Assembly: GCA_905160935.1 (NCBI GenBank) | Contig: CAJHZI010000576.1 | Location: forward strand, 722,501 to 786,500 | Direction: 5' to 3' | Source: Enchytraeus crypticus | Lineage: Eukaryota > Annelida > Clitellata > Enchytraeida > Enchytraeidae | Length of the DNA stretch: 64,000 nt | Shown: positions 3,458 to 51,100 of the stretch, piece after piece | Numbering within the stretch: position 1 is the stretch's first letter | How the letters are laid out: the number at the start of each line of letters is the position of its first letter | Made by a program: the position numbers and the translations under genes | The notes under the pieces: generated by a model | Database searches by the model: none | The model's input: the letters and a program-made list of their open reading frames with translations, nothing else | What the model was told of the DNA's origin: nothing

Positions 3458-3488
<31 letters not shown>

Positions 3489-9345: not shown

Positions 9346-9393
<48 letters not shown>

Positions 9394-21000: not shown

Positions 21001-22818
21001 GGTACAATTTCACAATAAATACACAGTACAGCAAAGCTAAATTTCACTATTCCAGCATTTTTATAAAAGCTTAAATTCATCACTTTAATAAAAATATATT
21101 TAAATTGAATTGAGTATTGAGTATTTCTGTCCGATTTTCGTCCTATCTCCATCACCCCTGTTCTTTCCAGACTCTGTGGGAGAGTCATCATTTCAACTTA
21201 CATTTATCCTGCTCTATTAAGTCCTCCTGCTACACTTTGTTTATATGACCAGTTCGCCTTCAGGCCAACCGGATCTACCACAGGTGTCCTGATAGCACTC
21301 TATCAGAGTATCTCACAAATGTTGTCAAGTAGTCCCTTTGTCAGAGTCATTGTTCTAAATTTTAGCAAAGCTTTTGATCGGATCAGACATTCAACTGTTA
21401 TTGAAAAGTTTGCTGATCTGGACATACCATCTTGCATCCATAATTGGCTTGTTAGTTTCTTTACTGGCTGTCAACATTGTACTAAATTTGATGGCAATGT
21501 ATCCTCTACTGCAAATATTTCAGCTAGTGTTGTACAAGGTTCAGCTATTGGTCCCGCTTCATATTCCATTACTGCTTCGGATTTAAGACCTATCCACTCT
21601 TATAATGACATTATTAAGTTCGCTGATGATACATACCTCATTATCCCATCTCAGTATCTTTATACCACTGACTATGAACTTGCTAACATTGACTTGTGGT
21701 CCAGTAAGAACAATCTACAGTTGAATAAGTCGAAATCCCGTGAACTTCTTTTCCATCCTCCGCGAACTAGATTTCTAGCAAGTTCTGAGTCACCGCTCCT
21801 AGATGGAATTGTCAGAGTCAACACCTTGAAGTGCTTAGGTGTTACACTGCAATCAAACTTTTCTTTTTCTGTCCACGTGGATGATATAATTAGCAGTTGC
21901 TCTTCTAATCTTTTTGCCATTCGCACTCTAAAATCAAAAGGTCTTAATTCTGACCTAAATGTTGTCTTTAAATCTATTGTACTCTCCAAGTTAACATATG
22001 CATCGCAATTTTGGTGGGGTTATGTTGGATCCTCCGAGAGTGAACGCCTTGAAGCCTTCCTCAGGAGGGCTACAAGATGTAACTTCTATGATGGAGTACG
22101 ATCTTTTGCGGATATTGCTGCCGATGCAGATGAGAAATTGTTTAACGCTATCATCAGTAACAAACAGCATGTCCTGCACCGGCTTCTTCTGCCGCTTAAA
22201 GATAATGTTAACTTTAAGCTCAGGGAGAGGGCTCACCCTTTCTCTTTACCATCTAAGCGCACACCTTTGATGGATAAGAACTTTATAATTAGAATGCTAT
22301 ATAAAGACTCTTATTAAGTTTTTTTAAACATTACTTTCTATATTGCCATTTGTGTGTGTACGTTTTCTGCGGTATGTCAGATTTCATGTAATAAACGAAT
22401 ATAATAATAATTTGAAATTGAAATATATTTTCATGAAATTAAACATAGTTAATTTACATTTTCGTTTACCTTTCAGTAAATGCTTCGACTACTCTTGATG
22501 TAAATTGATAATTTAGCAGCAAAATTAAAGTTAACACAGTTAGCTAACCCTTTACGAAAAGCTAACTATTAAGATATCATGATAAATTAAAATCATGCAA
22601 ACTGCAAAAACCTTCTCTAGTGTGTCTAGTTTTTCGCGGCCGAGAAAGTTCTTTCCACAACCAATGGACTTTGCGAGAAGACGACTGCACACAGGGTCTC
22701 CGTCTATACCTCTGCATATGTCGTACACCCAGCGACTAAGTCAACCAATGGAAAAATCATATATATATACATATGTACATATTAAATTTATATATACATG
22801 TATATGCATTATATTTAT

Positions 22819-22870
<52 letters not shown>

Positions 22871-22897
22871 GTATATATATATATATATTATATATAG

Positions 22898-22938
<41 letters not shown>

Positions 22939-25900: not shown

Positions 25901-27707
25901 TGAGGTAATACCTTCTGTATTACCTCACTGAGCTTAGGCTATTTTGTGGTAACCCGCTTCCTGATTATTTCCTTAGTTTCTAATTACGTATGCTGCATTT
26001 GTTGTTTATTATGACATGGAAACAAATAAAAAAGGTTGAAAAAAATCAAATACTGGAAATTAAGATCTGCCAAACAATGTAAGCAGCAGAATCTCAATCA
26101 GCACATATGGTGAGAGCCTTCTAAAGTTTTTCTGCAGCAATCAATGCAAGCCTTGCCATTGCAATGCATTTTTACACTTTTAATTTTTAAGATATCACAC
26201 TCGAATTTACTTTTAATTTATTTTAAGCAAGCTTATAGCTATATTTTCTATTAAGAATTACATAGTAAATATAATAATGTTCAATAATAATAATATTGCA
26301 TATAATTTTTAAGTAATACAGAAATTTGTCGCATATTCGTCTATAATTTAACTCTTTCAATTTTTTATACTAAGTCTGGCAGCACAATTTAGACAAAGAA
26401 TCCAGACAAACTTGGTGAGGTCGGCTTTGCCACGTAGTTCAGGCACTCTGAACAGATGAATGGATGGACAGGCTGCCACAGCTTCATCTCCGCAAATAAA
26501 TCTTCCAACACCAGCCGCTCTTGCTTCATAGTTAATGGCTATAATCCTTAACCAATCATTACATCACTCAATCAATCACTACATCAATCAATCAATCAAT
26601 ATACCACTCAATCGTGACACCACTCAATCGTGACATCACTTAATAATAACATCACTCAATCATGACATCACTCAATCATGACATAACTCAATCATAACAT
26701 CACTCAATCATGACATCACTCAATCAATTATTACATTGATCACTTAATCATGACATCACTCAAACAAACATGACATCACTCAATCATGACAGCACTCAAT
26801 CTTGACATCACTCACTAGAACTTTAAGAAAACCATTCATTAACCGTAGCCATTGCTTCATGCTTTGTTGCCATTATCCTAACTTAATCATTAAATCAATC
26901 ACATTAGGCATAAATAAATCTCCAAAAAATGCAATAAAAATAATAATAATAATAATAAAGGTTTAACATCCATTTTCTCTGCTAAGGAAGATGTCAGGGA
27001 CGTCCCCACAGCACACATCAATACAGATCAATTCACCTAGACCAATCTGCAAAATAAATCTGCTGAGGAGAAGTAAGGTCCTAAAAGAAAGCCAGTCCGG
27101 TGATAAAAAATGGTCAGGGTAGATTGATTATGTCTATGGTGAGAAAAGGTAAGTCTTAAGCTTGCTAGAGAAAGTTGAAAAAGAAAAACAAGAGCAAAGA
27201 TAGAAAAACAAGAGCAAAGATAATGACAATAGTAATGGAATTATATTATTTGAACCACTTCGAAGGTTTAAGTTGAATTTCTACTACAAATGCTTAATAT
27301 CCCAAGTAGAATGCTAATACTATCCTAACAACACTGTGTTGCTAGATTATATTTGCACAGACTACTATAGTACACATCCTATATTATCATAGTACTTTTG
27401 TATCCATGGGCATTATTAATTGATAGTGCGTTTAGCTCATTCATTCATTACTATGCTACAATGTCAAGTTGATGGTCTGAATAAATACTGACAAATATAA
27501 GAGAGTTACTACTACATACAATCAATATACAAAATTAATCTATTAGTTATGTTAAATAAAGCAAGCAAGTAAAAACACTTACGATCCACCCCGATATGGT
27601 TTATACTGGACCACTGCACACGGCAGACCCTGCCAAACAGGTTCCGCCCTCTGTTCCACTTGAACGTAGAAACAATCCATATCGATAAGGGCAATAACTC
27701 TTTCCAT
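16582..27707 (-). CDS. POLH: DNA polymerase eta, complete (10 exons)
   Basis: Y-family translesion polymerase that copies past UV cyclobutane dimers in the nucleus. Exons in coding order: 27707-27583, 26546-26412, 25788-25571, 25169-25000, 24318-24215, 23291-23172, 22735-22612, 20537-20472, 19032-18821, 18019-16582; all phases match, giving about 903 residues (human 713). Start ATG has A at -3 and G at +4. Metal ligands are D9 (ALIDMDCF) and D112/E113 (ERASIDEAY); Q34 (CAVVQY), R51 (YEAR) and R57 match the human dNTP-contacting residues. Later landmarks are CSAGIAHNK, LAKLTCGLHKPN, RWVYDICRGID, KSIGCGKNF and the little-finger segment ALTRYDA. The last exon encodes a long Ser-rich tail, a UBZ finger (C820, C823, H835, H839), a basic NLS-like stretch and the PCNA-binding end RLDAFFQRLP. 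Divergent from RAP1GDS1. Confidence 0.96.
18020..18820. other. POLH intron 9, featureless
   Basis: AT-rich intron without recognisable exon or mobile element. Short direct repeats around 18655-18780 (AGCAATCAACTAACGTTGTATGACTT / AGCAATCAACTAATGCTAAATGACTT) are a local duplication. Confidence 0.5.
18821..19032 (-). CDS. POLH: POLH exon 9 (little finger)
   Basis: Encodes NARVAKTLTVTAS, STALTRYDAQTIADDAF and LLQKFN; human has NDRVATQLVVS..CCALTRYDAHKMSHDAF. Acceptor TTGCAG, donor AG|GTATAA, phase 2. Confidence 0.95.
19042..19262 (-). mobile_element. SINE G with RTE-type 3' end
   Basis: Read on the minus strand: starts near CCGTGTTGTGTCCGGGTCGT, continues GGTTGGTGAGCGCCTAGCTC and ends CCGACCCTGGTTAAACTGGG, ATTTAGGGGAGGATGATGATG. 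The last part equals the end of the RTE element at 49727. Other copies or pieces: 5205, 12660, 15787, 47940 and 52795. Confidence 0.75.
19312..19510 (-). mobile_element. Element C, fullest copy
   Basis: About 200 bp, with ATGATGTCAGGGACGTCCCC, CAATTCACCCAGACCAATCT, TGCTGAGGAGAAGTAAAGTC and GGTCAGGGTAGATTGATTAT. Closely matched by 26955-27165. Non-coding; class unknown. Confidence 0.75.
19760..20465 (+). mobile_element. L4 LINE 3' region, interrupted by a SINE
   Basis: Degraded reverse-transcriptase C-terminus (TGGACTGAAACAATTAAAAA; GTTGGATAGGACATATTATA; ATGAACCTGCCGTTAGGCAG) ending in a GAGAGA tail. A reversed SINE B copy at about 20075-20200 splits it. The tail stops within ten bases of the POLH exon 8 donor. 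Confidence 0.75.
20472..20537 (-). CDS. POLH: POLH exon 8 (22 codons)
   Basis: Tiny exon encoding VQYWLKQFAEELVERLTSD and RDM, matching human VQWWLLQLAQELEERLTKD. Phase 0 at both ends. Its donor (GTTTTG) is followed within about ten bases by the GAGA tail of a retrotransposon inserted on the other strand. Confidence 0.93.
20538..21120. other. POLH intron 7, upstream part
   Basis: AT-rich, no feature recognised. Confidence 0.4.
21125..22400 (+). mobile_element. Jockey/CR1-like LINE, 3' half with reverse transcriptase
   Basis: Sense ORF of 332 codons (21319-22317) with RT motifs: FSKAFDRIRHST, VVQGSAIGPASY and the catalytic-site box KFADDTYLII, then LKCLGVTLQSNFSF and the LEAFLRRATRC tail. 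Translation upstream to about 21125 continues the RT (YDQFAFRPTGSTT) but not in one open frame. The 5' part is missing. The 3' end is AT-rich, near AATATAATAATAATTTGAAA. It sits in POLH intron 7, opposite to the gene. A dead or truncated copy. Confidence 0.88.
22612..22735 (-). CDS. POLH: POLH exon 7
   Basis: Encodes RWVYDICRGIDGDPV and KSIGCGKNFLGREKLDTLEK; the human counterpart is SWLYAMCRGIEHDPV..KTIGCSKNFPG. Acceptor CTTAG, donor AAG|GTTTTT, phase 0 out. Confidence 0.94.
22755..22955. repeat. TA dinucleotide tract
   Basis: Long TA/TATG tract in POLH intron 6, giving Tyr-Ile ORFs of no meaning. Other TA tracts: 41445-41503 and 43383-43415. Confidence 0.9.
23172..23291 (-). CDS. POLH: POLH exon 6
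   Basis: Encodes RGFGGKFGSILTKEL and ELVSRYDDKTA (human LGGKLGASVIEIL..). Helix-hairpin-helix/thumb region. Acceptor TTTCAG, donor GC|GTACGT. Confidence 0.93.
23515..23625 (-). mobile_element. RTE 3'-end fragment
   Basis: Reversed piece with CAGCTTAGCTATGGTCAGAA and CTGTCCCACACCATATCATC, matching the C-terminal coding end of the RTE copy at 49727. Confidence 0.6.
23635..24010 (+). mobile_element. Element E, about 380 bp
   Basis: Contains GTGCTCGGGTGTGGTCGGAC, GTAAGAGGCGACTATGGCAG, CTCAGAAGCCATACTTTTCC and ends GAACCTGCCACTTGGCAGTG. An inverted, near-full copy is at 47020-47400; fragments at 53130-53220 and 62595-62695. Its end resembles the 3' end of the L4 family. Confidence 0.75.
24215..24318 (-). 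CDS. POLH: POLH exon 5
   Basis: Encodes ILAKLTCGLHKPNKQT and VNYLFKSIPVNK, matching human VLAKLACGLNKPNRQT..PIRK. Acceptor TTGTAG, donor GT|GTATGT, phase 2. No start codon lies in it; it is placed by homology. Confidence 0.93.
24319..24999. other. POLH intron 4
   Basis: AT-rich. A local duplication is visible around ACACTTATGATATATAGTTCTG (24440) and ACACCTTTATTTATATGGC (24540). 24878-24950 is an element C fragment. Confidence 0.5.
25000..25169 (-). CDS. POLH: POLH exon 4
   Basis: Encodes GIPVADWLAALC, a charged loop, RRLAIGAAVIEEIRAEV and TGFRCSAGIAHNK (human TGFQCSAGISHNK). Acceptor TGACAG, donor AAG|GTTCCT. Confidence 0.94.
25571..25788 (-). CDS. POLH: POLH exon 3 (catalytic DE)
   Basis: Encodes YRKASVEGFRV, then ERASIDEAYLDLTEEV with the paired acidic metal ligands. 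The donor GTTTCA at 25570-25565 is chosen because it is the one whose phase fits the next exon; a better-looking GTAGAT ten bases further on does not. Confidence 0.9.
25789..26411. other. POLH intron 2
   Basis: AT-rich, no exon seen. Around 25896-25928 there is a 12-bp inverted repeat (AGTGAGGTAATA / TATTACCTCACT). Confidence 0.5.
26412..26546 (-). CDS. POLH: POLH exon 2
   Basis: Encodes IIAINYEARAAGVGRFICGD to RGKADLTK, matching the human exon IIAVSYEARAFGVTR..RGKANLTK. Acceptor TTAAG, donor AA|GTTTGT; phase 2 at both ends. Confidence 0.94.
26565..26818. repeat. 16-bp minisatellite in POLH intron 1
   Basis: Imperfect copies of CATGACATCACTCAAT with CAATCAAT variants, just upstream in transcription of the exon 2 acceptor. 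Confidence 0.85.
26955..27165 (-). mobile_element. Element C copy
   Basis: Near-full copy of the element at 19312 (GATGTCAGGGACGTCCCCAC; GGTCAGGGTAGATTGATTAT), preceded by a TAA run. POLH intron 1. Confidence 0.75.
27583..27707 (-). CDS. POLH: POLH exon 1
   Basis: Start MERVIALIDMDCFYVQVEQR through CAVVQYKPYRGGS; donor TC|GTAAGT, phase 2. Human pol eta begins a few residues earlier with the same motif. The residue after the conserved CF is Tyr where human has the steric-gate Phe18. Confidence 0.96.
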
Positions 27708-31669: not shown

Positions 31670-34600
31670 GTAAGGATTAACAATTTTTGAGAAAGTCTAT
31701 GGCAGTAATTCCTAAACTATGCTATAGTGCCCATATGTAAAAAGGTGGTAAAGCTAATGTTAACGTCAGTTTCTTCACTCGAAAGCGATGTCAGTGACGG
31801 GCGAGCCCAGGATTTGTGCATTGTTATGGCATCAGATAATATTTAAGGGAATTAATATTAAATATTCTATTTGCAGAAGATGTATCACTTTATAAGTAGC
31901 CTTTGTATTGCATCTCCTCTGGGAAAACTGACAACAAAATACTTTGTGATCACAAGGGGCACTGGGGCAGTCACCAAAAACTGATTGGGGGTTGGGGGAG
32001 GGGATTCTGCACAAAATTCTGAAAGGGTATTATTTAGCAAAGAAGTTTCAGAGTCACTGGTTTATGGTCTAAATAGATATTACATGTAAAGATCTAATAA
32101 GCGAAGTCTTAATTTATTTTCATAATTTCTGTTGTATGGTTTTTCTATAGGAAAAACTAATCTTAAATCAAAACAGTGAACCTGTGTGTTGTGTTTAAAG
32201 CGCAAGGAATCGACCATTAAATCCTTATTGACTGATTTATTGATTGAAAAGCTGGATTTGACATGTATGTTATAAGGGGGATGGTTTGCTGAAAGATGTA
32301 ATAGATGGAAGAATGCAAGGGAAAGAATTAGAGGCAGACCTAGCAAAGATTGATAGATGATTTAGTAACGAATTGTATTGGGAGACGAAAAGTAAAGCTG
32401 AGCTTAGAATTGGTTGCGTTATTTTCCATGAACTTGCCTTCAGTCTGTACAGTGAGATAGAGAGAGAAAATCACAAGCCATTGATTTGTGTGTCACAGAT
32501 GAAATAGTTGTAGCTGTTTTACTTTTTATCTTCTCAACAATTGCATGTGTACATGTACAATAATTTCAACTATTGCACTTTTGCAGGTTTATTTATGTAT
32601 ATTTCAGAAAACTGCTGTGTGTATAAGGATCTAAATCAGTGTTCAGAGGCTGAAGTGAAGCAGGAATTAGTAAACATTTGGATGAAACTCTGTGATGAAA
32701 ATGGTCAGTTTTTTATTTCCTACTTAGTTAAGGAGTGGAATTATTTGATTAATGAGATGATGAATTAAAGGTTCTGTAAATGAGATCCTTAACATTCTGA
32801 TATGTTACTGATATGATACTGATTTGACTTAACCCTGATATGCACGTCATGTAGATTGGTTGAGAATTTGAGACTTATTTACCGTCAAACTTAGAAGAGT
32901 TTATTGCTGAGAAACTTGTGTCGCTGATATATGCTATTAATAACCTTCTAATTTGGTATTCCTTTATTTATCATGTTATGCAAATTTATAGTCAACCTAC
33001 GTTCACCTATTGCAGTGAAAGAAAATTGTTTAGTTAACTTTAGAGATAGTAAAAGCAACTTACTGTGTGATTGACTTTATTGTCCGTAAGAAATACTAAT
33101 TGTAAAATTTCTTGCAAATATTTTAATTTATCCGTTTCCTTTGATATTGTTGTGCTTAAATATTGTTTAGTCTCTAAGCAATATAAATATTTATACATTA
33201 CTTTTGAGAAGAATCGGAAGAGATGAAAGAAGTAAAGCGACTGCAGTTGATAGAAGGCGGGTTTCTTGAGTCAGTTGTAGACAAGTTGAAAAATACTTCA
33301 TTAAGGGAGGATGCTTCCCATGTCATAGCTGAGCTGGCCAAAACTGGTATGATTTTGTGTCTTAGTTTAATCCATTATTCATTTTATACCATGGACCTGC
33401 CAGTAGGCAGTGCACTAAGAGAGAGAGAGAGAGACTTACAGTATGCATTGAGGGATAAATTATTTTTGACATGACATTCATTTGTAACCGCAGAGACGTA
33501 AACTGTGCTAAAACATGAAATATGAGTTTTTTAAAATAGCATAAAATAAAGAATGGTGGGATTTAAAGGGGTTTGATGGGATAAAGAATGGTGTGAATTT
33601 TTTATTTTTTATTTATTGCTTTATTTTTGGCATAATAACCCATACATGAATCTTGCACATACAACAATGCAATAAGAACCAGAAAAGCAAATAGGCTGTG
33701 CATAAATTGAGCTTTAAGGCAATTACTGATAAAATTAGGCATAAAAACCAACAATAAGCTCAGAACATCAAAACACGTAACTAGCATATTAGTGTTATCC
33801 AGCAAGCACATTCTAAACTTTAGTCTGTAATTAGAAACAACTAACTGTATGTTTTGTTAATTAATTTGTGCCCCGATCTTATGTTTTGAAGAATCTGCGC
33901 GAACTAGATGTGTATCAGCTTCTCTGATTGGTCCGCTGTTGGACATTTTAAATGATGGGTCGATGAACGAGTACGTAGAAACTTGTCGCGCACTCGGCAA
34001 CATTTGTTTTAATAATGGTAAATATTTACTTTGTTTACGATATACTAGTTTTACCTGTTAGTATATGTTTTATCCTAAGAACATTGAGAAGAAATTTTGT
34101 AAAACTTTTTGTGATTCGTTAAAAGTCTTTGATTCAGAAGGTGGTTTGCTATGCTCTTTAGATATCTATTTATTAGCTTGGTATTTTTTACTATTTCTTG
34201 ACAGTTTGACTTTGATTTTTAGTCCTCGATATTGTCATGGACAACGGTATCACTTTAATTCACTTTCTTCTGTTAACTTCTAACTTAACTGATTGCATTT
34301 AACTTAACTCGTAACTTGTAATTGTTAAGCATAGTAGAGATTTGGCTTCTTTGACGAGGTAACCCATTCAGTGTTGACAAACTATTTGTCTCATATAAAT
34401 ATAAAAGAATTCAGAAAGATGGGTATTCAAATTTGCCTTCTGCTCAAATTGCAATAGGCAACTTTTAATATTTGATCTTTAAGTCAATTTAAAACTTTAT
34501 GAATGCAATGCAGCCTTATTCCTAGTCAGGGAATAGGGCTGCACTAAATTAACAAATTAATTAAATTAACTAATTGCACTTAATTAACAAAATTAATCCT

Positions 34601-37600
34601 GAAATATTTAATTAATTGATTTTGCTAAGATCCTGCGAGACAGGCAGTGTATGATTGCGGTGGACTGGAGATAATAAAGCGATTGATGTTGAGAGTGGCG
34701 GAAGCCAAAGAGGAGAAGGGTAAACTTGTGAGGAAGGTTGTCTGCGGATTTCTCTTCAATCTCATCAATACCAATGGAGAATTAGCTGGTAAATAAGTTT
34801 TTTTTCTTTCTCTGCCTGTTGTTCATTTACCTGTTACTTCTGACGTTTAGAGAAAGAACTCAAACCAATGTGTACACTAACACAAGAACTCTAACCAATG
34901 TGTATACTAACACTAGAACTCTAACCAATGTGTATACTAACACTAGAACTCTAACCAATGTGTATACTAACACTAGAACTCTAACACTAAAATTGTATTA
35001 AAGAACTCTAACTACGGTGAACCTTAACTACTGTGAACTCTAACTCTAGAACTGTAACTAATAAGAACTCTATCATTAGAATTCTAACTACTATATCAGG
35101 TACACTTTCTGTTCTAAACGACTTTGCATATAGTCAACGTCAGATGATGAATTGGACTTTAAATCTCTGTTAATTACTTTAATTAGGTCTATACATTGAC
35201 TCCCAGTTTTTTACGTGAAAGAGGAATATGCTACAAAACTATCCCAAACAATGTGTGAGAGATTTATGTTATCAAAACATAAATTCTTGAACATTCTTTA
35301 TTTAATTATTAAACATTGAATCTTGTTATGAAAACTTTATTATATCGTAACGTCTATTCAAGTTGGATTCTTTTTGACGTTGCACACAAATAATCCACCA
35401 GCCCTGACGACTCCCAGACTCTCTGAGTGCAGTGTGGAGGAATCACGTGGGTTGATCAAGAGTCTCAAAGATAAGTGCGAAATCAGCGATGATGGGGAAA
35501 AGTGCGAGAGAGTTCGTGAGATTCGCCTGCAGATAGGCTTTGATAGTATGTTAGGCGGTGAGACAGATTGACTCTGGATTGCTCGATGTTGTGCGTTATG
35601 AGGCAATGTTAGGTGTAGCGTTGGTAGCCAGTGGATGAATTGATTTGTTGATGTAATTATTTCTTTATGTTTTTCTCCTGTATATTCTGTAGTAAGATTA
35701 AATTAAGAGATATTAGGCTGGAGATTTATTTTGTAGCTATAAAGGCTCTGTGTTGCATAGGCGTGTTCTATGATTTTTCTTGAAATTTGTTTTTATTGTT
35801 ATGACAGTTTGATTTGAACAACAATTTATGTTACATCTGACTGTGAGTTTATGCACTTTATTGTCAAAATTATAGTACTTAAACGGAAGAAGAATTACCT
35901 TTGAAGAAGTAGGCCTACGTGTTAGCATTGTAGATAAATGTATTGCAGGTTAAAATGTTTTATAGTCAGAATTACGTTTATTTCATCCAAGATTGCTAAC
36001 AGCCATACACATGTAATACGTATAGAGAAAGTGATGAGTCAAAAAGGCACTGACTTTTCCCCTGATCATGTACAACTAAATATCACTTAATGGCAATTAT
36101 GACTTAGTAACATAATATTATATTGCGAATATATGTTGAATTTATGAATTCCAGTTTGTTGATGCATTAAATTTATTATGAATTAGAGGACAAATAATTA
36201 TTTGTTATATTAATTAATTATAATTAACGTTTCTGATTTTTGTCTGGTTTCAAAACTTTAAGGCTGTTTGACGTAGTTTCCATAACTGATTTTTTTTCAT
36301 AGTATGGATTTACTCAGCAGTGTAATTACTTGTAGCTGTTATTGGGTAAACAACTTTAACCTCCCTATATGCCCATTCTCTCCCATCTAATTTAGTAAAA
36401 ATTTCTCCTATTTCTACTCTAATCAGGTGGTTGGTCTAAATAACCTCTTGAATAGATGAAGTTATTTGTTAATTCAATGTTCCTATCATTATGAGCAGTG
36501 TTGCCTCTACACCACAAAAACGGCCGATTTGTACTAAAAGGAAATACTGTAATTTGTCCTTTAAGTAAATTTACCAGTTATAGACCTATTACTTGAATTT
36601 TTTAATTATTTCAACAACTATAAAACTATTTTTGAACATTTCTATTTAACTTTGATTTGAATTTAATCATATATATTTCACTTTAGGCTGCATCATACGC
36701 AAGAAATGCATGAGATAAAGTGAAAAAGGACACAAAAGGCCACGAAAGCACTGACATGTGCCCTAAACAAACATAGCCAAAATATAGCATATAAAGTAGT
36801 CAGAAGCTTACAGCAAATCAAGAAACTTTAAACGCCAGTTTTATTTCTATCATTTCTTTTTTTATTGTTACCATATTTGTGTTAGCTTTTATTGTTAGCA
36901 TAAATATTTTATACTTCTTAAAGCGATACGGCATGCAAGTATTATGTGTATTTACTATTAAGCAAGTGTCATAGTTTGTTCGCTTATTCTACCGTTGTTT
37001 GCTCTACAGCCACTAGCTCCTCTAATGAGAACAATATCCCTGACACTTTGCAGCATTCATTGATAATGTATGTTACCAATGAATGTTACATTGGTAACAT
37101 TCCTTGGTAACATTGGTATTCATTGATATTCGTTGACATTCATTGGTAACAGACTAACAGTCACCCAACGTCACATCTCGTAACTGACTCAACCATACGG
37201 CGGATTGTCTGTTAATTGTTCCTTGTAATTCCTGCCTAGATTCTCACAGTACCTTGTTATCTTACGTACCCTTAAACAAGCATCTGTGCTTCCTGGCCCA
37301 GTGTGCCGTTATGTTGTGCTATCGTTCAGTTGGTCGACTTGCTGATAAGACAAAAAGAAAATAAAGTGCAAGGCAAAACGTATCAATGCGCAGAAAAAAG
37401 GATCAGTCAACACCGAACGTGCTGGATTTAAAATATATCCTTTTAGCTAGAAATAACAAAATGATATATTATTTTATCTAAGACTGCCTTTTTAAATGCT
37501 ATAATGAATAGAAACAATGATTAGATAGCGCACATTCTAAGGGACATAGATTACTAAAGGATGTCATAGAAGGCAGAATGGAAGGAAAGAGAAGCAGAGG

Positions 37601-40600
37601 CTGACTCAGAGTAGGAATGTTAGATTATTTAAAGATCCCCCGTATGTGGACATGAAGAGGAAAATGGAAGATAGAGAGGAGAGGCTGCTTTATATACCAT
37701 TGACGTGCCAGTAGGCAGTGGACTAAGGGATATAGAGCAAGAGAATATAACAATAATTAGAGTACTGTCTTCCCTAACAACATTTAACACTATTGAGGTA
37801 AATCCAAACTAGTATGTAAAAAGAAGGTTCAAAAGGGTGCAAATTCAAAAATTCAGAAAACCGGTTCATAGATAAAATGAATGTAAGAAATGGAGGTTTA
37901 CGTATTATATAATATGCATGAAAACTAGTAGAGCTGTTGAAATTTAGAATTTATATTATGTGTAATACAAGTAATGCGACTCTGTCTTGACTGGCTTTTA
38001 TATTGTAGTTTCAAGTTCAAATAAGTATTACTAAGTGTTTATCTTTGAAAAGTAATGAGAACTCTATATTTCTTTCCTATTATCGTTTACTACTGTATAC
38101 TAGCATTTAAATTCATACTAGTATGGTGTAGTTATGCATACTACTGTATGACTACATGTAAACATTACTGCATTTATAGCTGATTCAATGAAGCAATTTG
38201 TCAGTAAATTTCCACTATTGCTGTAATCGCGCACATTATATTAATTCAGATAGGCGGTTAAATCAAATCCTCGGTCAGTTAGCATTACCGGTTTATAACC
38301 GGTTCTAAAATCACATGACAGCTGCGCCTCTGAGGCAGTATAAAAGGAAGCTTTTCTGCGTGCTTGTCACAGTCGCCATCAGTTCACTGAGACGATAACA
38401 AGTGGCCTCAAGGCTCTATTACGGTAGAGGAGGTACTGACCTCAGTCAATCTCTCCTCTGCTGACTGCTGACCTCGAGGCGTCTCGTCCCTGGTCGGCGG
38501 GGCGAGCTTCGGCTCGCTAATTTGGGAAATATATGGGTGGGGTACCAAGGGGTGGAGTATCCTGGAGTGGGGTACACGAATCCGGGGTCGGCTTACCCTT
38601 GGTTGGGGTACCCCGACAGTATGTACTCTACTCAGAGTACCCAGAGGTACCTCGGGTCGGGGGCCAAGGGGGTGGAACCCCGGGGGTGAACCCCGGGGGG
38701 GGAGGAACCCCGGGGTGGGTGGGTGGCACCCCCCATGGTGGTTGGTGCCACCCCCGGGGTGGGTGGTGCCACTCCCGTGATGGGTGGTGCCACTCCCGTG
38801 GTGGGTGGTGCTACCCCCGGGGTGGGTGGTGCTACCCCCGGGGTGGGTGGTGCTACCCCCGGGCTGGGTGGTGGAATTCTACACATGTTTGATGGTGCAC
38901 CCTCTCACCCCCCACAAGTGGTTGATGAAGTGAGTGCACCATCAAACATGTGTAGTATTGCTGATGAAGATGTTATTTGTGGATGTACAGAAGTGTTAAC
39001 TAAGCACGTGTTATCTGTGGATGTACAGAAGTGTTTTTGAAGCACGTGTTATCTGTGGATGTACAGAAGTGTTAACTAAGCACGTGTTATCTGTGGATGT
39101 ACAGAAGTGTTTTTGAGCACGTGTTATCTGTGGATGTACACACGTGTTATCTGTGGATGTACAGAAGTTAACAAGCACGTGTTATCTGTGGATGTACAGA
39201 AGTGTTTTTGAAGCACGTGTTATCTGTGATGTACAGAAGTGTTAAGCACGTGTTATCTGGAGTGAAGATGAAGCACGTGTTATCTGTGGATGTACAGAAG
39301 TGTTACACACGTGTTATCTGTGGATGTACAGAAGTGTTAACGAAGCACGTGTTATCTGTGGATGTACAGAAGTGTTTTTGAAGCACGTGTTATCTGTGGA
39401 TGTACAGAAGTGTTTTTGAAGCACGTGTTATCTGTGGATGTACAGAAGTGTTAACGAAGCACGTGTTATCTGTGGATGTACAGAAGTGTTAACTAAGCAC
39501 GTGTTATCTGTGGATGTACAGAAGTGTTTTTGAAGCACGTGTTATCTGTGGATGTACAGAAGTGTTTTTGAAGCACGTGTTATCTGTGGATGTACAGAAG
39601 TGTTTTTGAAGCACGTGTTATCTGTGGATGTACAGAAGTGTTAACGAAGCACGTGTTATCTGTGGATGTACAGAAGTGTTAACTAAGCACGTGTTATCTG
39701 TGGATGTACAGAAGTGTTTTTGAAGCACGTGTTATCTGTGGATGTACAGAAGTGTTTTTGAAGCACGTGTTATCTGTGGATGTACAGAAGTGTTAACGAA
39801 GCACGTGTTATCTGTGGATGTACAGAAGTGTTAACTAAGCACGTGTTATCTGTGGATGTACAGAAGTGTTAACGAAGCACGTGTTATCTGTGGATGTACA
39901 GAAGTGTTTTTGAAGCACGTGTTATCTGTGGATGTACAGAAGTGTTTTTGAAGCACGTGTTATCTGTGGATGTACAGAAGTGTTAACGAAGCACGTGTTA
40001 TCTGTGGATGTACAGAAGTGTTAACTAAGCACGTGTTATCTGTGGATGTACAGAAGTGTTTTTGAAGCACGTGTTATCTGTGGATGTACAGAAGTGTTTT
40101 TGAAGCACGTGTTATCTGTGGATGTACAGAAGTGTTAACGAAGCACGTGTTATCTGTGGATGTACAGAAGTGTTAACGAAGCACGTGTTATCTGTGGATG
40201 TACAGAAGTGTTAACGAAGCACGTGTTATCTGTGGATGTACAGAAGTGTTAACGAAGCACGTGTTATCTGGAGAGATCCTGGAAGTGTTGTACGCCTATG
40301 TGGAGAGACACATCGATGACGAGGATGTGATGCACATGATCCTGTTGACTCTCGGTGCACTGGCTGACGGTGGTTAGTTCTACTGACATCTGATAGAGTC
40401 ATCATCATTTTATCATCATCATTTATCATCATCTTTTCATCATCATTTAGCATCATCATTTACATTATCATTTGGCATCATCATTTACATAATCAATTAC
40501 CATCAGCATTTACATTATCATCTTTTGGCATCATCATTTATCATCGTCATTTAGCATCATCATTTACATAATTATTTAGCATCATCATTTAGCATCATCA

Positions 40601-41439
40601 ATAGCATCATCATATGGCATAATTTTAAAATTTTGAATATCATATTTGCATCACTTTGTAGCTTCACTGATTGTTTAATTGAAAGTCTGTCAAACTGAAA
40701 TAGATAAAGACTACTGGTGAAAAAACAAAAATAAATAACTTTTCTTTACTTATTGATGTACAGTATAAAATTCTTCATGGGCATTGGAAACTACCATGTA
40801 ATCATGTGCTGTTTGTGATTGTAACTAAAATGTTTATTCTTATATGAATTCATATGTAATTTTGGACTACAATTAACTAGTACCTAATAATATTGTAACA
40901 TATGATTTTGAAATAAAATAAACTCTCTCTCAGTATGAGTAAGAATCGGTACAGATAGACAGTACTATAGGGTATCATATATATGTAATTGTGGTAAGAA
41001 ATAGAAAGAAAAGCTGGATATTATAAGGGAGATTACTAAAGGATGTAATAGAAGAAATAATGCAAGGGAAAAGAGTTGAGGAAGATCAAGACATGAGATT
41101 TTGAATGATCTGATAACAAATTCATATATAGAGATGAAAAAGAAGGCTGAGGATAGAATTGGTTGGAGGAGTTATATGCCATGGACCTGCCGTTAGGCAG
41201 TGCACTAGAAGAAGAGAAAGTACTATGTAAAATACTCAACCACTTCAAGCACAGGATCTAGGATCTCTGTATATTAACTCCTGGATAGACAACTGACACG
41301 GCTGAGATTAATCAGCTTACAACAGGAGGCCATTGTTTACTACGAGCCAGACACAACCGGCTGCTGCCTGACGTCTTGTGGTCAGAAGTTGTTCTATTCT
41401 ATTCAGAAGTTATTGTAATCAAGCATTCTGTATTTTATG

Positions 41440-41507
<68 letters not shown>

Positions 41508-43379
41508 TTGTGTTATATATATGATGTTATATTTACATAATATTTCTTGACAAGACCCTGACAGATTTTATATCACTGAATGCATTTGAAAGATTTTCTC
41601 ATTTTTTCCTTATTTATAGAGTCGGGAATTTCAGCGATGCTGCAGTCTGGTATAATAAAGACTACGAGCAGACTTCTGTCACTAGCTGGCGCTTCTCTAG
41701 AGCAACAGGAGAATCTCATCGGCTTCTACTCAGCTCTGATTGAGCATGGTAATGATCACAGGACTTTTACCTTTCCCAAACTTTACACCAATTGTTCTTG
41801 GGGGAACACTGTGCAGCTGTTTTGTCATACCATATAGGAAATTCATCAAATCGACTATTTTTATATCATTTTGCATTAGGCTTTTTAATTTTGATTAATA
41901 TTTCACTTTCTTGAAGATGTGTATCTTATTGTAAAATAGCTTTTGATATTTTACTGCTGGTCATTTTGTATCGAATTCAACATCTACCGACGACTGAGAG
42001 GCTTAACATTATACATTTTATGGTCAACATTAACAGATCAATCACAACAATAGCATGAGTAAAGAGCTAACGTCGCATACGACAACATCGAGTACTATGA
42101 AACCAATACCGTGCCGGGTTAAGTTAGAAATACTTCAATACTATATATACAATTTTTGGTGGTTTGTCAGCGTCATTGACGGTTTATGTTTATTAAAAAG
42201 CTGGTAAAGCTAAGGATGACGTCAGTTTCCTCACTCGAAAGCGATGTTAGTGACGGGCTAGCCCAGGATTTGAACCCCGCACATACTTATCCGCGGTCGA
42301 GTATCTTACCGACGTCGCCTCTATGAATCTGATTTCCTTGCAGCAACGTGCCACTTAATTATAAAATGGTTTACTGCTGTGGCTATGAGTGTAACTATGT
42401 GTTCTCTTCTATGAAGCCTGAGGATAAAATCAGAAAAAATAATTGTGTAATTAACATATTTGTATAATTAGCCATGTGTATATTTAATTATTATTATTAA
42501 TTTTATTATTATTTAGTATCAATTTTAATGTTTTCCTTATTCGCATGTTTTTATTTTTTCAGACGAAGTGAAGGATTACTTTGCAGTAAATGGCATTTTT
42601 GATGATCTACTTGATTTATTGAAAAAGCTTCCAACTGATGTCACTCATAATCCTTCAGAGAAAAAAGACGATGATGATGACGACGATGATGATGATGTAG
42701 GGAATCTCAGAAAATCTGTACTTGATCTTATTGTTTTGATTCTAACTAGTGGTAAGTGAAACATGCATTAATTAATAGAACCAAGCGCCTCTGTTTCTCC
42801 GTAGACCAAGAAAGTTACTAATAAACTATTCAAATGAACTATTGATATCAGCTTGATTATTTCCTGAAATATACTTAGAAATAATAATATCAAATAGCGT
42901 GCCATTCTTCACTATAAACAATAACTCTTAAAATACTGCGCATCTGACGAATGGGCAAATTTTCAATGCTCGACTTGGGAAAGAATTTGTGACCTCCAGA
43001 AAAATAGGCTCTAGTGAATTGTTTTCTTAAAACTATTAGGAACATATTCTGGTAATACGACAATGTTAAGTATTAAAGCTTGTACGAGATAGTTCTTTAA
43101 AAAAATTTTAATATGGCAAATTATTAACTTTTTTGGGATTGTCTATATATTGTAAGATAAATAGCTAGTCTCATATTAAGCCAGCTCTCTCTGCCTGTGT
43201 CGCTGAAGTAACGCCGAGCGTCATGATTCATATTTAAAGTTCTTCAATAGTTACTCTAATTACAGCTCCATCATTTGTTCATTCCCGACTTCTATTCATA
43301 TACCGTGTAGGCTTATATAATGGAAGTTTATAACAGCGTCAGCGGATTCATATCGCTAATTAATTTCTATCATTGTTAT

Positions 43380-43419
<40 letters not shown>

Positions 43420-46400
43420 GTATATACCTATACGATTTGTCATTGAGGGATTTCTAGTGTAGCTGTGTAATGTTTCGTTTTGGAAATCATGTTTTAAGCT
43501 TAGTTTGCATGCCAAGTTACCAATGCATTCATGCATAGTAGTATTTAATTATTGTGGCATATTTTATTTTATCTAGTATTGTGTGTATTAGACAAAAGCC
43601 TAGAAGTTCTCTACTCACACGGTCAAGGGCGTATTATAAAAGAAGCTTTTGATTGGTTGGCATTGTCCGACACTCAGCTGCAGATATCAGGCGCCCTTGC
43701 CCTGGGAAACATTGCTAGAACAGGTTTGTCCTATTTTAGTGGTAAATCTTGAGCTTCTTGTTTAATTTTTAAAGTGCTTTTGAATAAAATGTTTCAATTT
43801 TTATTGATTAGATATGTCTTAGTGCATTGCCTATTGGCAGGTCCATAACATATAGCGCTTCCGCTCTTCTCTGTCTTCCGCTTTCCTCTTCGAGTCCACA
43901 TATGAGTGGATCTTTAAATCATCTGACATTCCTAATCTCGGCCTGCCTCTGCCTCTATTTTATTTCCTTCCATTGTGCCTTCTATGACCTCTTTTAGCAA
44001 ACTTTCTCCCCTTAGAATGTGACCTATCCAACTCTTCTCCCTATTTCTTAATACATTTATCAACTGTCTATCTCTACCAACTTTCTCCAGAACTTCCTCA
44101 TTTATAACCTTTTGAGTCCAGATAGTCCTTTCCATTGTTCTCCGTATCCATATTTCCAATGCCTCCAGTTTCCTGATATCTCTCTTCCTTAAGGTTCATG
44201 TTTCACATCCATATAATAGTATGATCCAAATGTAAGTGTTAACTATCTTTATCTTTGTGTCTTTATTTAGACTCTTTTGTTAAAAGTTCTTTCCTACTAC
44301 CGAAGGTCCCCTTTGCTTGTGCAATCCTACTGCATATTTCTGTATCATATTGCCTATCATGTCTGGGTAGATATTTGACTATTTATTTTGTATGTATTAC
44401 ATGTATATATTATAATTCTCTATCTGAATTTATAATGTATGTGAATTTGATGTTTATAATTTGCTCTACACAATGTGCGAGTGTGCAAAGAATTGATGAA
44501 GAGAAACTGAAGAAGGCACCGGTAAATCACCTCAGAAGTCCTTTGTTCTAGCTGAAGTCTGCCTTAAGGCATGATACATAGCCTTTCAGATAGAATCAAT
44601 GTATTGAACTGGAAAGCATTCTCTTTACAAGAGCACGATAACAGACTGTGTATAAAAATGTGCCATTTGGCACTATATATAGAGAGTAATGAATGGTATT
44701 AAATCCGGAATATATCTTCTAACTGGTTAAATAGATAATTAAGACCTATGTTTAATCATTATACCTAAAGCCCAAAATTTAATATTTAAATCCGATATAA
44801 TTTTTTTTCACCAGTCTGAAGAAGGCGGTTCAGCCAAGGCTAGAACTCAAGGCCGTGCATTTTTGAATTATTTGAAGTTAGTTCACTGCTAAACTTACCG
44901 ATACATGTCGGGAAGTTATTCGACCGCGGATCAGTATGTGCGGAGTTCAAATCCTGGGCTCGTCCGTCGCTACTGACATCGCTTTCGAGTGAGGAAACTG
45001 ACGTTAGCGTTAGTTTTACCAGCTTTTTAAACTGATTTCTAAGCTGCATAGGCCTACCAAAATACTAGCATTGTAGGTTTAGTTGGTCATCAGTTGCACA
45101 AGACTGGACTGAGATGTAGGCCACCTGTAGGAAGTAGGTCAAATACTTAATAAAAAACAAGTATTTATATAAATTATAATTATCTACCCCGACCGGAGTT
45201 AAGCTGGGATTCAAGGGATGATGATGATCATCATCATCATTCATATAAAATATCTCCGACATTATCCCTGTGATATAGAAGCTGGTCTTAGTTAGTTTGT
45301 TAAAATTGTAATTTTATTTTTAAAATTAATAACATTTAGAACTGTCTATTTCAGAATCTCACTGTGTACAGTTGGTTGAGATGGGTGCCGGTGAGAGACT
45401 GCTCGAGTTGTTAGAGAAATATCCTGTCCCATCAGCTGATGGTGCTGCCAGTGATGCTCTGAATTCTGCAGGAATTTTGTCAAAACCTGGTAGCACTGTC
45501 GACTCTCAAATCTATCATTCAGTGCTGAGTGCTCTGAAAAATCTTGCCATACCAGGTTGTAAGATCTAGATAGTTTAACAGTTATTATTTATGTAATTAA
45601 TACGATTAAGCTAAAATAAAGGTTTCTATGCCTAATTAGGTTTTTTATTTAGTTTATTTGCCTAATTCTATAAGTAATTGTCTTAGAGCTCAATTTATGC
45701 ACAGCCTATTTGCTTTTCTGGTTCTTGTTGCATTGTTGTATGTGTAAGATTCATGAATGGGTTATTACGCCTGAAATAAAGCAATAAATAAATAAAATAA
45801 ATAAATAAATAAGCTATCAAGGTAAATTAAACTAACCCATCTTTTTAGAAGGTTTTAGTGTATAATTATAATTAATTAGTGACTTATTATATTCAAGTGA
45901 TTTTTAATAATTACCAACTTTATTGATTCTGGGGGAAATTTAGTGGAAAATGTTATTGAATTATTGATTGTCATATAATTATCTGTTGTTGTTTGGCAAT
46001 GTTTTTCGTAAACTCTAGCCGCTAATATGAAAGTTTAACTGAAATAGTATACTAATTAGCTAATTAGCACTAATTACTATATAATTAAACTAAGCTTACA
46101 GTTTGATATCTAAAAGATGGAGTATCTCAGTGATCATGATCATTGATATTTGTATGTTCTTTTGGAATTGTTTTATTTGTTTTTTTTATTGTTATTGTTT
46201 TTGTATTTCTTGCTGATTTTATGCAGCAAAACATTTTATTATTATTTATCTTTGCTAATTTAGTTCTCCATATTGTTTTGCAGTATTGAACAAGCGTCGG
46301 CTGGAGCAGTGTAGGATAGTGGAGAGAATCCTACCAGTGTCTGCAACCTCGGTCACCTCCATACAGTTCAAGCTGATCGGTACCCTGAGAATGGTTGTCG

Positions 46401-48073
46401 ATCAACAGGGTATGCCGTATCTGACATATCTATTTATAGGCTAACTGCTGTCAATAGGTTAATTGTAGTCTATTTAGAGGCTAAATCTAATCTATTTGTA
46501 GGCTATTTCTACTCTGTTTATAGGCTAATTCAAATCTATTTATAGAGTAGTTGTAATCTCTTTATAGGCTAATTGTGTCAGTTCCAACGAATTCACTAAA
46601 TACTAATAGTGAGAATATTTAAATTTTTTAGTTAATTTTGGTTAAAATATTCAGGGGCGTCCTTCCCCCCTAGAGCAATGGTTGGTCGCATTTTTTCTGC
46701 TCCCTCTCTTTTACAAATCTCTGTATTTTTTCCCATTTCCCGTCATATTTTGCCATCAAAGTAACTTACGAAGTTGACAGTATTGTTTGAACGCTCCTGA
46801 AAATATGAGAAAGCCTACATATATCACTACTAGTTTTGATGTGAAACTTGTATTTTTCAAAATTACTTTTACGATTGATACATTGCAGAGGATTCGTGTA
46901 AGCTCTTGGGAGGGAATGAAGAATTTGTGGCTCGGATGATCAAATGGTGCTCTGTGGAAGATCACGAAGGAGTTCAGGGTGTGTTATATTTAGCTTTAGA
47001 TTGATATAATAATTACAGTATTCTTCTTCTTCAGTGCACTGCCAAGTAGCAGGTTCAAGGCACATATTCATACTCAAAGTCTGCCTTCTCGCTCCAAAGG
47101 GCACTCTTTAGATTAACAAGTTAATCCCTTCACAAAGTCTATGCCTTATCCATACCTTATGTAGCCTATAGCTTGAGAAAAATATGGCTTCTGAGGTGGT
47201 TTCCCTTTGCCTTCCTCAGATAGGTGGATTAATTACCATTTAATCCTGGGGAAAATGTTTCATGGTGAGGTGGGTCCCCTCTTACCATCCTCAGCTCCTG
47301 CCTTTAGTCGCCTCTTGCGTACACGCGGCAGAATGTTTGTGGTTGCCCTATTCTGCAGTGGTCCAACCACACCCGAGCACAACACGGGGAAAGTACAGTA
47401 TTATAATATTAATATAGTATAATTATTAATAATTATGTCTTAAATTACAATGATTGCATGAATTGGTAAATATTGATTGTCATAGGCGTTTGATATTTCA
47501 ATATCGTTGTTTTCAAAAATTGCTGTTTACCAGTTTGAACTCTCGCTGAGTTATTCTCTCTGAACATCTATATCATTCTGCTTATGTGTGGATGAACAAT
47601 CTTCGCTTGGGCATCACTGTATATCATGACTCTGACAAAGTCTGAATTACTTTATTTCAATTCAGTTTAGCTAAGTTTAAATATTCACTTATCTTTAAGA
47701 TTTACTCGTTAGGGTTTTGATCTGATTGATCGCGCTGGTCGCGCCGGTATCGAGATCTTAATCGTGGCTATTCTCGAGCCAGTATCGAGATAATAACCGT
47801 GGCTCGTCGTGAATCAGCAAAGCTGGTTACGACCAGATACTATATCATTAAGCTCAATTATTGTTGTGCTATATTACTAATTCTCACTGCTATCATGCAT
47901 TACTCGTTATAATTTCTACTCTTATATAGATAAAAGCATATGGGCATTCGGTTGGTGAGCGCCTAGGCTCCAGAAATTGCTACATAAACTTAAACGAATG
48001 GATAAACTTAAAAAAGTCTATTCGAATCCTGACCCTGGTTAAACTGGGATTTAAGGGATGATGATGATGATGT

Positions 48074-48112
<39 letters not shown>

Positions 48113-51100
48113 GGAGGACGACGACGACGAGGACGACGACGACGATGATGATTTATATAAAAGAACGAATAACTATCTTGCAATACTTATCATAATTTCT
48201 ACTCTTATGTATATACTGTATACACCTGACACAGCGGAGGCTCGTAGACTCGTGTCGTCTCTGATCAGACACGCGCACTGCACGCGAGTCATGCGCGCGG
48301 TCGTGCGGCACGGCGCCGTTCTGCCGCTGGTTAAGATGTGCGCCGCGCAGCACGCGCTCATGCAGAACGAGGCGCTAGTCGCTCTCTCTCTTCTCTCGGC
48401 CAGCCTCACAGGTTTGCTACAAATAGATAAAACTGAGTTTAACGTCTGTTTCCGTATCGTAAAGGATACTGTCGGAGAGGGTCCGTTTGGTATTCGAACC
48501 ATTGGTCTCCTGCTTGTCAGGCAAGGGTGCTACACATTCGGCCATCCAACCGGTACAATCCAGTTACCAGGCAAGTCTGATTACAACTCGCCACCTGCTG
48601 GTACTTTGTTTCTCTGTAATTCTGTATTACTGATTATTTATATTAGGAATCTTACGTCTTCCTCCAGTGTTTTGACAAACGCCAGATCCAAGGCATATAC
48701 TCGTCGTATTCACTTGCTACATTCACGCTGTCTTTAGAGGACTTCAGAGATCAATTATTCGATCCATCAAGACGTTTCTGTCTTTTCCAAACGTTAATAT
48801 TAAAGCTTTGGACAAATCTTGAGACTGTTGAGGTAGTACTCCATTAATTTCCTAAATTTATCGTCCAATGTGTCTAGTTCTTTCAATTACTATTGACTTA
48901 AGTAGGCAAAGCTATGCATTGCTAGAGTGCGAATTGGTTTCGTATGTCATTATAACTCCCTTGTATAACTACTACGAATTATATTGTTGTCTTCGATGCA
49001 CCTTGGGTCTTTGATATTTATTGTAATCTTGTGCCCTATTGCATAACCATTTCATAAAATTCCCGACCCTAGCTAAACTAGCATTCAAGGTAAGATGATG
49101 ATGATGATTTCTTAACCATTCGATGTATTTTATATTATGCGTTTGCCACTGATAATCTTACTTCGACTAATATGTTTAACCCGTAGCATGTTGTCACGTT
49201 TGCCAACTGCAGATCTGTAGGTGCGCGGTTCAAATCTTGAGCTCCCTGTCACTGACATGATTATGTGACAGGAAGCTAACGTTAAGCTCAACTTTAGCCC
49301 TTTTAGCTTTTACGAATTGAGCTGTTTGTTTTTTAATATTATGTACGTGATGCATTAATATTATCTCGAATGATACATTTGATCTGATCATATTAGAAAT
49401 CAGTAGTTTCCTTCAAGTGTGGTTAATTTCTGTTCAAGACTGCTTATGTAGTTTAACTTGATTACTTGTACCTTGATTAACTTGATAGTAACGATTTTTG
49501 TATTTTCTGCTGGTTGCAGACTTGCTACTTGTCACTATTAACCTGTTTTGTTTTATGATAGATGAAGTCGTGCAGGATTTAAAAGACGCTGACATTTTAA
49601 CTGTGGCAGAAAATATACTCGTTGATGTCAAAACCACTCCTGAAGTTCTTCACAACACTCTAAGTCTCGTCTACTCTCTCACACAGTCAGGTTAGACTGC
49701 AATCTCATTCGTCATCATCATCATCATCATCTTCCCTTAAATCCCAGTTTAACCAGGGTCGGGATACGAATAGGCTGTCTCAAATCCTCCCTGTCCCACA
49801 CCATATCATCACTCAATCCCCTATTTTTTATGTCCTTCTTAATTACCGCATCCCAAGTCAATTGTGGTCTACCTCTCCCAAGCTTGACATCCAGTTTTTC
49901 CCTCCAAACTCTCTTTACTACATCCTCATCTGCCTTTCTCACAATATGCCCATACCATCTCAATCTCGACTGAGCCAACATATCCATGATCTCTTCAACA
50001 TTCAAATTCATCCTCACATATTCATTTTCCATTCTGTCCTTCCTAGTCCTTCCAAACATTAGACGCAACATTCTCATTTCTGCCACATGCAAACTCTGCA
50101 AATGTTCCCTTTTTAGTGCCCAACATTCCGAACCATATATCATTACTGGCCTTACCACAGAACTATAAAATTTGCCTTTCAGTCTTAGTGGGATTCTCCT
50201 GTCACACAACACTCCACTAGCAGCCCTACACTTTGCCCATCCAGCCTGAATCCTGCTAGTGACCTCCTTTTCCATCTCCCCATGATCCTCTATTACAGAT
50301 TCCAAATACTTAAAATCTGTTACCTTCTTTAGCTCCACACCCTGACTTATTACTCTATCTCCGTTTATCATCTCACCCTTCCATCTACTCCCTAAATGCT
50401 CCGTCTTTTTCCTTATTCACCCTCAGTCCTTTACTTTCCAGTGCCTCTCTCGCGTTTTCCAACATCTCGCTTACTTTCTCCACAGTGTCTCCTACTATCA
50501 CCAAATCATCTGCAAATAGCATGCACCATGGGGCTTCCTTAATAACTCCCTTAAGCAACTCATCCATAATAAATATAAACAAGTATGGACTTAGGGCTGA
50601 TCCTTGATGTACCCTGATCTTCACTTAGACTGTTCTTCAGTTAGACTTCAATCTCATTATTAAAGAAAATTCAGTTTTCTTTCATGCCCGGCAATCAAAC
50701 TTGTGTGATGATTCTCATGACTCCATTACTAGTCTGAATACTATTAATAGTTCTAACACTATTGTGTATTGTTTTTAGTTCAATAATTAACCGTTCTTGT
50801 ATTGTATATTGTTTACAGTTGAGGATCTTTATCCTGAACACTGAGTTTAAATGATGCTTTTTCTAAATTTAGAATATGCAAGTGCATTTTGATCTCTCTA
50901 TATTTTCAAATTACATTCAATTAAGCATCTTCGTCTCTTTTAGTTCTTTTGTGGAAAATAAAAGAAAATAAACAAATAAATAAAAATTGTATTTCTATTT
51001 TCATTATTATTGATTTATTACCATTTATTAGTGTTATAATTTTATTATTATTATTGGAACTCGTGGAGCAGCGGAAGAGAGCTCGCCTCTTGAACGAAAG

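Follow-up and report, generated by a model that had tools for sequence, protein, structure and literature searches.

A mirage-type minisatellite with 34 units at a predicted 3' splice boundary of a RAP1GDS1 gene

A 38-bp tandem array runs into a coding exon of a RAP1GDS1 gene in the window, the stretch of 64,000 nucleotides analysed here, and each of its units comprises 11 nt of intron end followed by 27 nt of exon start at the predicted boundary. The array is a mirage-type boundary minisatellite, a kind of repeat already known. It probably arose by local tandem duplication, with its last copy, which borders the real exon, as the one normally spliced. The array is a strong example of a rarely studied repeat kind, with unusually many acceptor copies. 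A smaller array at a 5' splice boundary lies about 88 kb away in an esterase-like gene.

Results

The RAP1GDS1 gene and its homologs

Our RAP1GDS1/SmgGDS model has 13 coding exons on the + strand (32608-49690), whose boundaries were chosen by eye to keep the frame open; it lacks the first and last exons of the gene, hence we give no absolute exon numbers. All 13 exons have lengths divisible by three and phase-1 junctions. Three of the 13 predicted acceptors (33212, 33892, 34630) end in AAG, not in CAG or TAG, and a GAT/GAC repeat in a coding exon (42667-42695) encodes a run of ten Asp. A homolog search with a fuller model, in which the Asp run was shortened, returned 314 proteins at E <= 0.001 from 7,995 candidates scored. 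The top match was a record without a name (39% over 95%), and the best named one came from Mytilus (34% over 92%). Against the PDB, a partial model matched SmgGDS (5xgc, E 1.3e-30), with an engineered ARM protein at rank 1, and in Pfam the Arm repeat scored over its cut-off, with ARM_ARMC5 and PUL under theirs. The full-length homology to named RAP1GDS1 proteins with Armadillo repeats identifies the gene as RAP1GDS1/SmgGDS (vimar). In a tree of 40 chosen homologs, the protein groups with P0019 (100/97), and a wider group of five includes the annelid Ridgeia (98/98), with Branchiostoma elsewhere; the branch of the window is long, so that this placement is uncertain.

Elsewhere in the window, ORFs at 1593-10502 (+) carry an Ig domain and a tyrosine kinase domain (Pfam) and perhaps form a single receptor kinase gene. 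ORFs at 16582-26563 (-) carry a UBZ zinc finger (Pfam), and we take the gene to resemble that for DNA polymerase eta.

Anatomy of the array

An earlier note on this DNA had described a 38-bp array running into the RAP1GDS1 exon, and TRF (34.2 copies, score 1778), the unit map and the gene model confirmed it (Table 1). Its figure of about 35 units and acceptors needs correction: the units are 34, starting at 34 GATGTACA sites from 38982 to 40235, and the TACAG acceptor is intact in all but unit 5, which reads TACACA. A single variable slot takes one of three versions in 30 of the 34 units, namely TTTTTG (F, 14 units), TTAACG (C, 10 units) and TTAACT (T, 6 units), and is irregular in the other four. 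The order of the unit types has no simple period. The last four units are all of type C, and the three units preceding the exon-start unit are identical with it. That the core stays so uniform for about 950 bp suggests that it was amplified recently or is being actively homogenized. The unit ends coincide with the imperfect direct repeat (8/9) of TGTTATTTG and TGTTATCTG.

The inverted repeat just upstream of the array is predicted to fold into a strong hairpin in RNA (-46.1 kcal/mol and z -4.86, a value that none of 200 shuffles reached), which also lies upstream of the putative ancestral branch site. Just 5' of the hairpin stands a GC-rich 21-bp minisatellite of CCCCGGGGTGGGTGGTGCCAC (about 8 copies, 38708-38873), in a window that is AT-rich (35% GC). 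A 13-bp array of CATCATCATTTAG (40400-40613) begins 31 nt past the exon end in the next intron.

Table 1. Positions in the window of the array, its neighbouring exons and the associated signals
Feature	Position	Strand	Remark
Upstream RAP1GDS1 coding exon	34630-34788	+	donor GCTG|GTAAAT, phase 1
Inverted repeat just upstream of the array	38879-38955	+	perfect 22-bp arms, 38879-38900 and 38934-38955
CTGAT, branch-site-like	38961-38965	+	A (38964) 27 nt before the exon position of the first unit
38-bp boundary-spanning array	38971-40270	+	34 units, 33 intact TACAG acceptors
Imperfect 9-bp direct repeat (8/9), left copy	38971-38979	+	TGTTATTTG
Irregular zone of the array	39096-39322	+	units 4-9 with indels, lengths 37, 23, 35, 37, 61, 34
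Regular core of the array	39323-40270	+	units 10-34, variation confined to one slot (C/T/F)
TTAAC of the penultimate unit, within copied exon codons	40211-40215	+	A at 40214 (-30), putative branch function
Intronic part of the last unit	40233-40243	+	TGGATGTACAG, predicted productive acceptor
Coding exon at the array	40244-40369	+	126 nt, first residues E|VLTKHVLSGEIL, donor GACG|GTGGTT, found once in the assembly
9-bp direct repeat, right copy, within the exon	40262-40270	+	TGTTATCTG
Following coding exon	41620-41748	+	ESGISAMLQSGIIKTTSRLL...

The last unit as the predicted exon start

The proposal that the last unit supplies an acceptor and the first codons in the right phase was borne out: the G from the donor at 34788 and AA|GTGTTAACG at 40244 join into GELA-E-VLTKHVLSGEIL, in agreement with the all-phase-1 model. 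On the other hand, the exon that the note assumed between 34788 and the array has to be dropped, as no candidate was found by eye in three frames between 34788 and 38971, and the homolog alignment leaves no space for one between the two exons. In that alignment, a sample of 26 homologs taken from 138, the 42 residues of exon 40244 are gap-free in 23 (the exceptions are P0040, P0058 and P0002), and its first codon encodes E in 20 and D in three, the remaining three having G, L and a gap. Six residues separate NLIN from the first E here, against two in 24 of the 26, 46 in P0026 (Ridgeia) and none in P0002. Thus the upstream exon carries four additional residues (GELA, 34776-34788) compared with 24 of the 26 homologs, and its donor appears displaced by 12 nt in frame relative to that of relatives. 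The 44 additional residues of P0026 may, as a guess, be an intron annotated as exon in its gene model. Exon 40244 is present once in the 524-Mb assembly, in which no second haplotype was found.

Entry at 40244 keeps the frame open through the next three exons, and no other of the 33 intact TACAG acceptors does so. The note had expected that entry at an earlier unit shifts the frame and meets a stop, and this is the case for the other 32, where a stop follows after 9-60 aa, 117-1329 nt before the 3' end of the exon. The idea that the array is translated through as protein was rejected, since every intact TACAG entry but the last is closed. The note was right to make the last unit a requirement for productive splicing; in-frame AGs at 40220 and 40247 are open as well. 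Specifically, 99 AGs would place the exon start within 38971-40244, and the frame is kept by two of them, 40220 (GAAG) and 40244; just past the array acceptor, the NAGNAG partner at 40247 (CAGAAG) is also in frame.

The note had further aligned the first nine residues, EVLTKHVLS, with the human protein. The exon is collinear with homologs and its phase fits, but the fit of the nine residues themselves is modest, as 1,286 of 100,000 random 9-mers score as well. They are poorly conserved, ranking among the bottom 9% of 510 windows, and score 2.7 against the homolog profile; 185 windows of similar conservation have a median of 9.9, and only 12% score as low as EVLTKHVLS. Similarity to homologs tends upward with distance from the array end. 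Therefore phase, exon length and collinearity, rather than the nine residues, favour the last acceptor. Frame, phase and collinearity likewise make the unit joined to the exon body the authentic boundary unit. The prediction that 40244 is the real exon start, and that it alone of the unit acceptors continues into the exon body, is thus supported by phase, length and homology.

Splice signals and candidate branch sites

The acceptor at 40244 scored 4.6 with a leave-one-out matrix, which is rough with 12 sites. This is on the weak side, with nine of the other 12 acceptors of the gene higher and three lower, and 7.8% of the 3,704 AGs in the window reach the same score. The donor of this exon (GACG|GTGGTT) also looks weak. 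A branch-like yUnAy motif lies at -27 to -30 of 17 of the 34 unit acceptors; the other 17 have no such motif 10-45 nt upstream, and 14 of these come after an F unit. The local signals of many earlier copies thus equal those of the last copy, and no local feature makes the last copy stronger.

The AG-free zone upstream of the productive acceptor is 24 nt long. In the standard model, splicing takes whichever AG comes first after the branch point, and those less than 12-15 nt from it can be bypassed (PMC1431707), so that the branch site of this acceptor should lie nearby, within the array. The sole yUnAy in the AG-free zone plus 15 nt is the TTAAC in the penultimate unit, and its adenosine would be the branch adenosine under a branch-point-to-first-AG model. 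In that case, duplicated exon codons would act as an intron signal, and the AG 4-5 nt past this adenosine would be skipped because it lies too near. The CTGAT with its A at 38964 is a probable branch site from before the array, which would now lead to a frameshifted exon.

A second boundary array and a survey of 244 kb

Boundary arrays were surveyed in 244 kb, namely the window and 18 flanking 10-kb stretches. The second array, on the donor side, is at L014:1167-1286 (G000:C483 673667-673786), within the flanking stretch G000:C483:672501-682500; on the same scale the window is G000:C483:722501-786500. An exon of an AADAC-like esterase ends there AACGATGATGTTGTCAGG|GTAAGAACT, and the 24-bp unit, present five times, consists of 15 nt of exon end and 9 nt of intron start. 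When the first donor is joined to the next exon, the product PQPNDDVVR|WYETVLDGVPVRVY stands opposite FSKNDPELEVKDTLFDGVPVRIY of P0144 (Patella), gapless between the two, among 14 homologs of the 120 listed; other AADAC-like homologs vary in length further upstream of PQPNDDVVR. Pfam assigned no family to the two short exons. The esterase assignment comes from a longer joined query, whose top matches were alpha/beta hydrolases and arylacetamide deacetylase-like proteins, the best named AADAC-like match being from the annelid Capitella. As the period equals eight codons and all units are open, alternative donors would insert in-frame repeats of eight residues.

On the donor side, two of 78 candidates passed at the consensus cut-off, the esterase array and a TG-rich array in L010. 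On the acceptor side, five arrays (L010, L012, L014:919-1025, L017 and L020) were set aside by eye; this side of the survey demands a good donor and misses exon 40244, so the survey is incomplete and gives no rate. This incomplete screen of 244 kb yielded no further accepted boundary array beyond those of RAP1GDS1 and the esterase gene. Boundary amplification thus recurs at both a 5' and a 3' boundary, with two arrays found in 244 kb.

Discussion

Origin and direction of the duplication

We suppose that a local tandem duplication, by slippage or unequal exchange, would have copied 11 nt of intron together with 27 nt of exon, perhaps seeded by the 9-bp direct repeat that flanks the acceptor. 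From the anatomy of the array, later exchange and homogenization would then have raised it to 34 units. The direction had been left open in the note. Copying of the exon start into the intron is now favoured, because the unit equals the exact intron end plus exon start, because the left flank shows no significant similarity to the unit, and because the exon is single copy and gap-free in 23 of 26 homologs; the modest fit of the first nine residues tempers this preference. A left flank made of a decayed older unit was rejected, as 278, 216 and 141 of 2000 shuffles were as good for in-register extension over 40, 60 and 100 nt, and the left flank alone showed no significant likeness to the unit (279 of 500 shuffles as good). 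A dispersed satellite overlapping the exon by chance was also rejected: the exact 20-mer of the exon start has 10 sites in the assembly by exact matching, all in the array, and with a single-copy exon no outside source was found.

The array may instead have rewritten the first codons of the exon by gene conversion or unequal exchange, or a satellite may have overwritten them. The low score of EVLTKHVLS relative to comparable windows, the ease with which random 9-mers equal it, the rise of similarity away from the array end and the identity of the three preceding units with the exon start all speak for such feedback. We nevertheless consider it unlikely, since the first codon is E as in 20 of the 26 homologs (three more have D), the exon length is equal in 23 of them, the phase is as expected and no copy of the exon was found beyond the locus; moreover, the deficit of the nine residues is not extreme in a fast-evolving protein. 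It is less likely still that the true acceptor lies elsewhere, for example at the AAG of 40220, the NAGNAG partner 40247, or 40274 or 40286 within the exon, although all four AGs preserve the frame. Use of 40244 gives a 126-nt phase-1 exon collinear with homologs, whereas entry at 40220 adds eight residues and lies only 6 nt past the TTAAC adenosine, and entry at 40274 or 40286 drops the conserved first codon along with the residues that follow. An assembly artefact, with the unit number or the array itself wrong, seems the most remote of these, though tandem arrays are often misassembled in copy number: 1.3 kb would be short for long reads, the unit types follow no simple period and the exon is single copy.

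Possible consequences for RAP1GDS1 output

With a mirage-type minisatellite as the preferred reading, splicing by default at the last acceptor is most likely and leakage into earlier copies is expected to be minor. Transcripts from such leakage would contain premature stops and probably be degraded. Against the preferred reading stand the equal local signals of many earlier copies, the rather weak acceptor and donor of the exon, the four residues that the join adds and the poor conservation of the first nine residues. A larger role as a position-dependent splicing switch or a dampener coupled to NMD, in which a fixed share of splicing is lost and array length tunes RAP1GDS1 output, is possible but rather doubtful. 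A stop follows at least 117 nt ahead of the exon end for 32 of the 33 intact acceptors, which fits the usual NMD rule when applied to this distance; half of the unit acceptors (17 of 34) lie at a suitable distance from a branch-like motif; and the very uniform core is probably young and variable in length. On the other hand, lancelet mirages with repeated splice signals are described as not interfering with regular splicing (PMC3087553, PMC3902484), and this precedent argues against a large effect. A joint reading, to which we give about the same small weight as to the dampener, would combine recurrent boundary amplification in the lineage with duplicated codons serving as branch sites, so that the exon start depends on the branch point of a neighbouring copy, the ancestral branch site leads to a frameshifted exon only, and array length sets the loss of transcript.

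Significance

Studies of how the spliceosome selects one of several equivalent acceptors usually deal with competition between two or three AGs. Here 33 near-identical 3' splice sites stand ahead of one exon, with one predicted to be productive, which offers a natural test of acceptor choice. Counts of junctions per unit could distinguish between rules based on the order of transcription (first-come), on the branch site and on exon definition. Moreover, our findings suggest that boundary minisatellites, known from lancelets and some human gene families, are also present in a distant lineage of animals, where their copy number can become high; new introns or exons might arise in this way.

Comparison with known systems

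Mirages were described in lancelets as tandem duplications of an intron/exon boundary (PMC3087553). In that paper, the mirage of globin BflGb6 reaches from the 3' part of an intron into exon 2 and has 6 units on one haplotype and 3 on another, BflGb9 has a donor-side mirage, and the Adh3 mirage shows somatic instability; Adh3 data and globin RT-PCR suggested that regular splicing is undisturbed. Similar mirages are reported for lancelet PGBD5 and troponin C (PMC3902484). The RAP1GDS1 array agrees with these descriptions in being a minisatellite-like tandem duplication that spans a boundary (here a predicted one), in its splice signals repeated in the units (33 of 34 here) and in less homogenized units near one edge. 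Both boundary types have counterparts, the 3' one in BflGb6 and RAP1GDS1 and the 5' one in BflGb9 and our AADAC-like gene. The host is apparently not a lancelet, as the RAP1GDS1 protein groups with annelids, on a long branch; we regard the lancelet host as an observation and not as a defining trait. On the other hand, our array has 34 units against the 6 and 3 of the BflGb6 haplotypes, and its unit is 38 bp long against 150-160 bp (10-72 bp in Adh3). The lancelet mirages are known with length variation and splicing data, the RAP1GDS1 array from its sequence. In the literature searched, with most subscription papers outside it, we found no published array in which acceptors are repeated tens of times, and none from an annelid-like animal. 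Earthworm metallothionein minisatellites are described as intronic (PMC12783039).

Human genes in segmental duplications also have minisatellites at exon-intron boundaries, described as variable tandem repeats with mean units of 30 bp that can alter splicing (PMC2812944). Those repeats average about 4 copies, lie in recent paralogs and have RNA evidence for new introns, whereas here a single-copy exon adjoins 34 copies. With NAGNAG and other short tandem acceptors (PMC3250501) the array shares competing AGs beside one exon, and its CAGAAG is itself a NAGNAG; those, however, are two sites 3 nt apart, and ours are 33 sites over 1.25 kb, of which a stop closes all but the last. Exons with distant branch points and AG exclusion zones (PMC1431707) share with the array the first-AG rule, but the AG-free zone of the RAP1GDS1 exon is only 24 nt.
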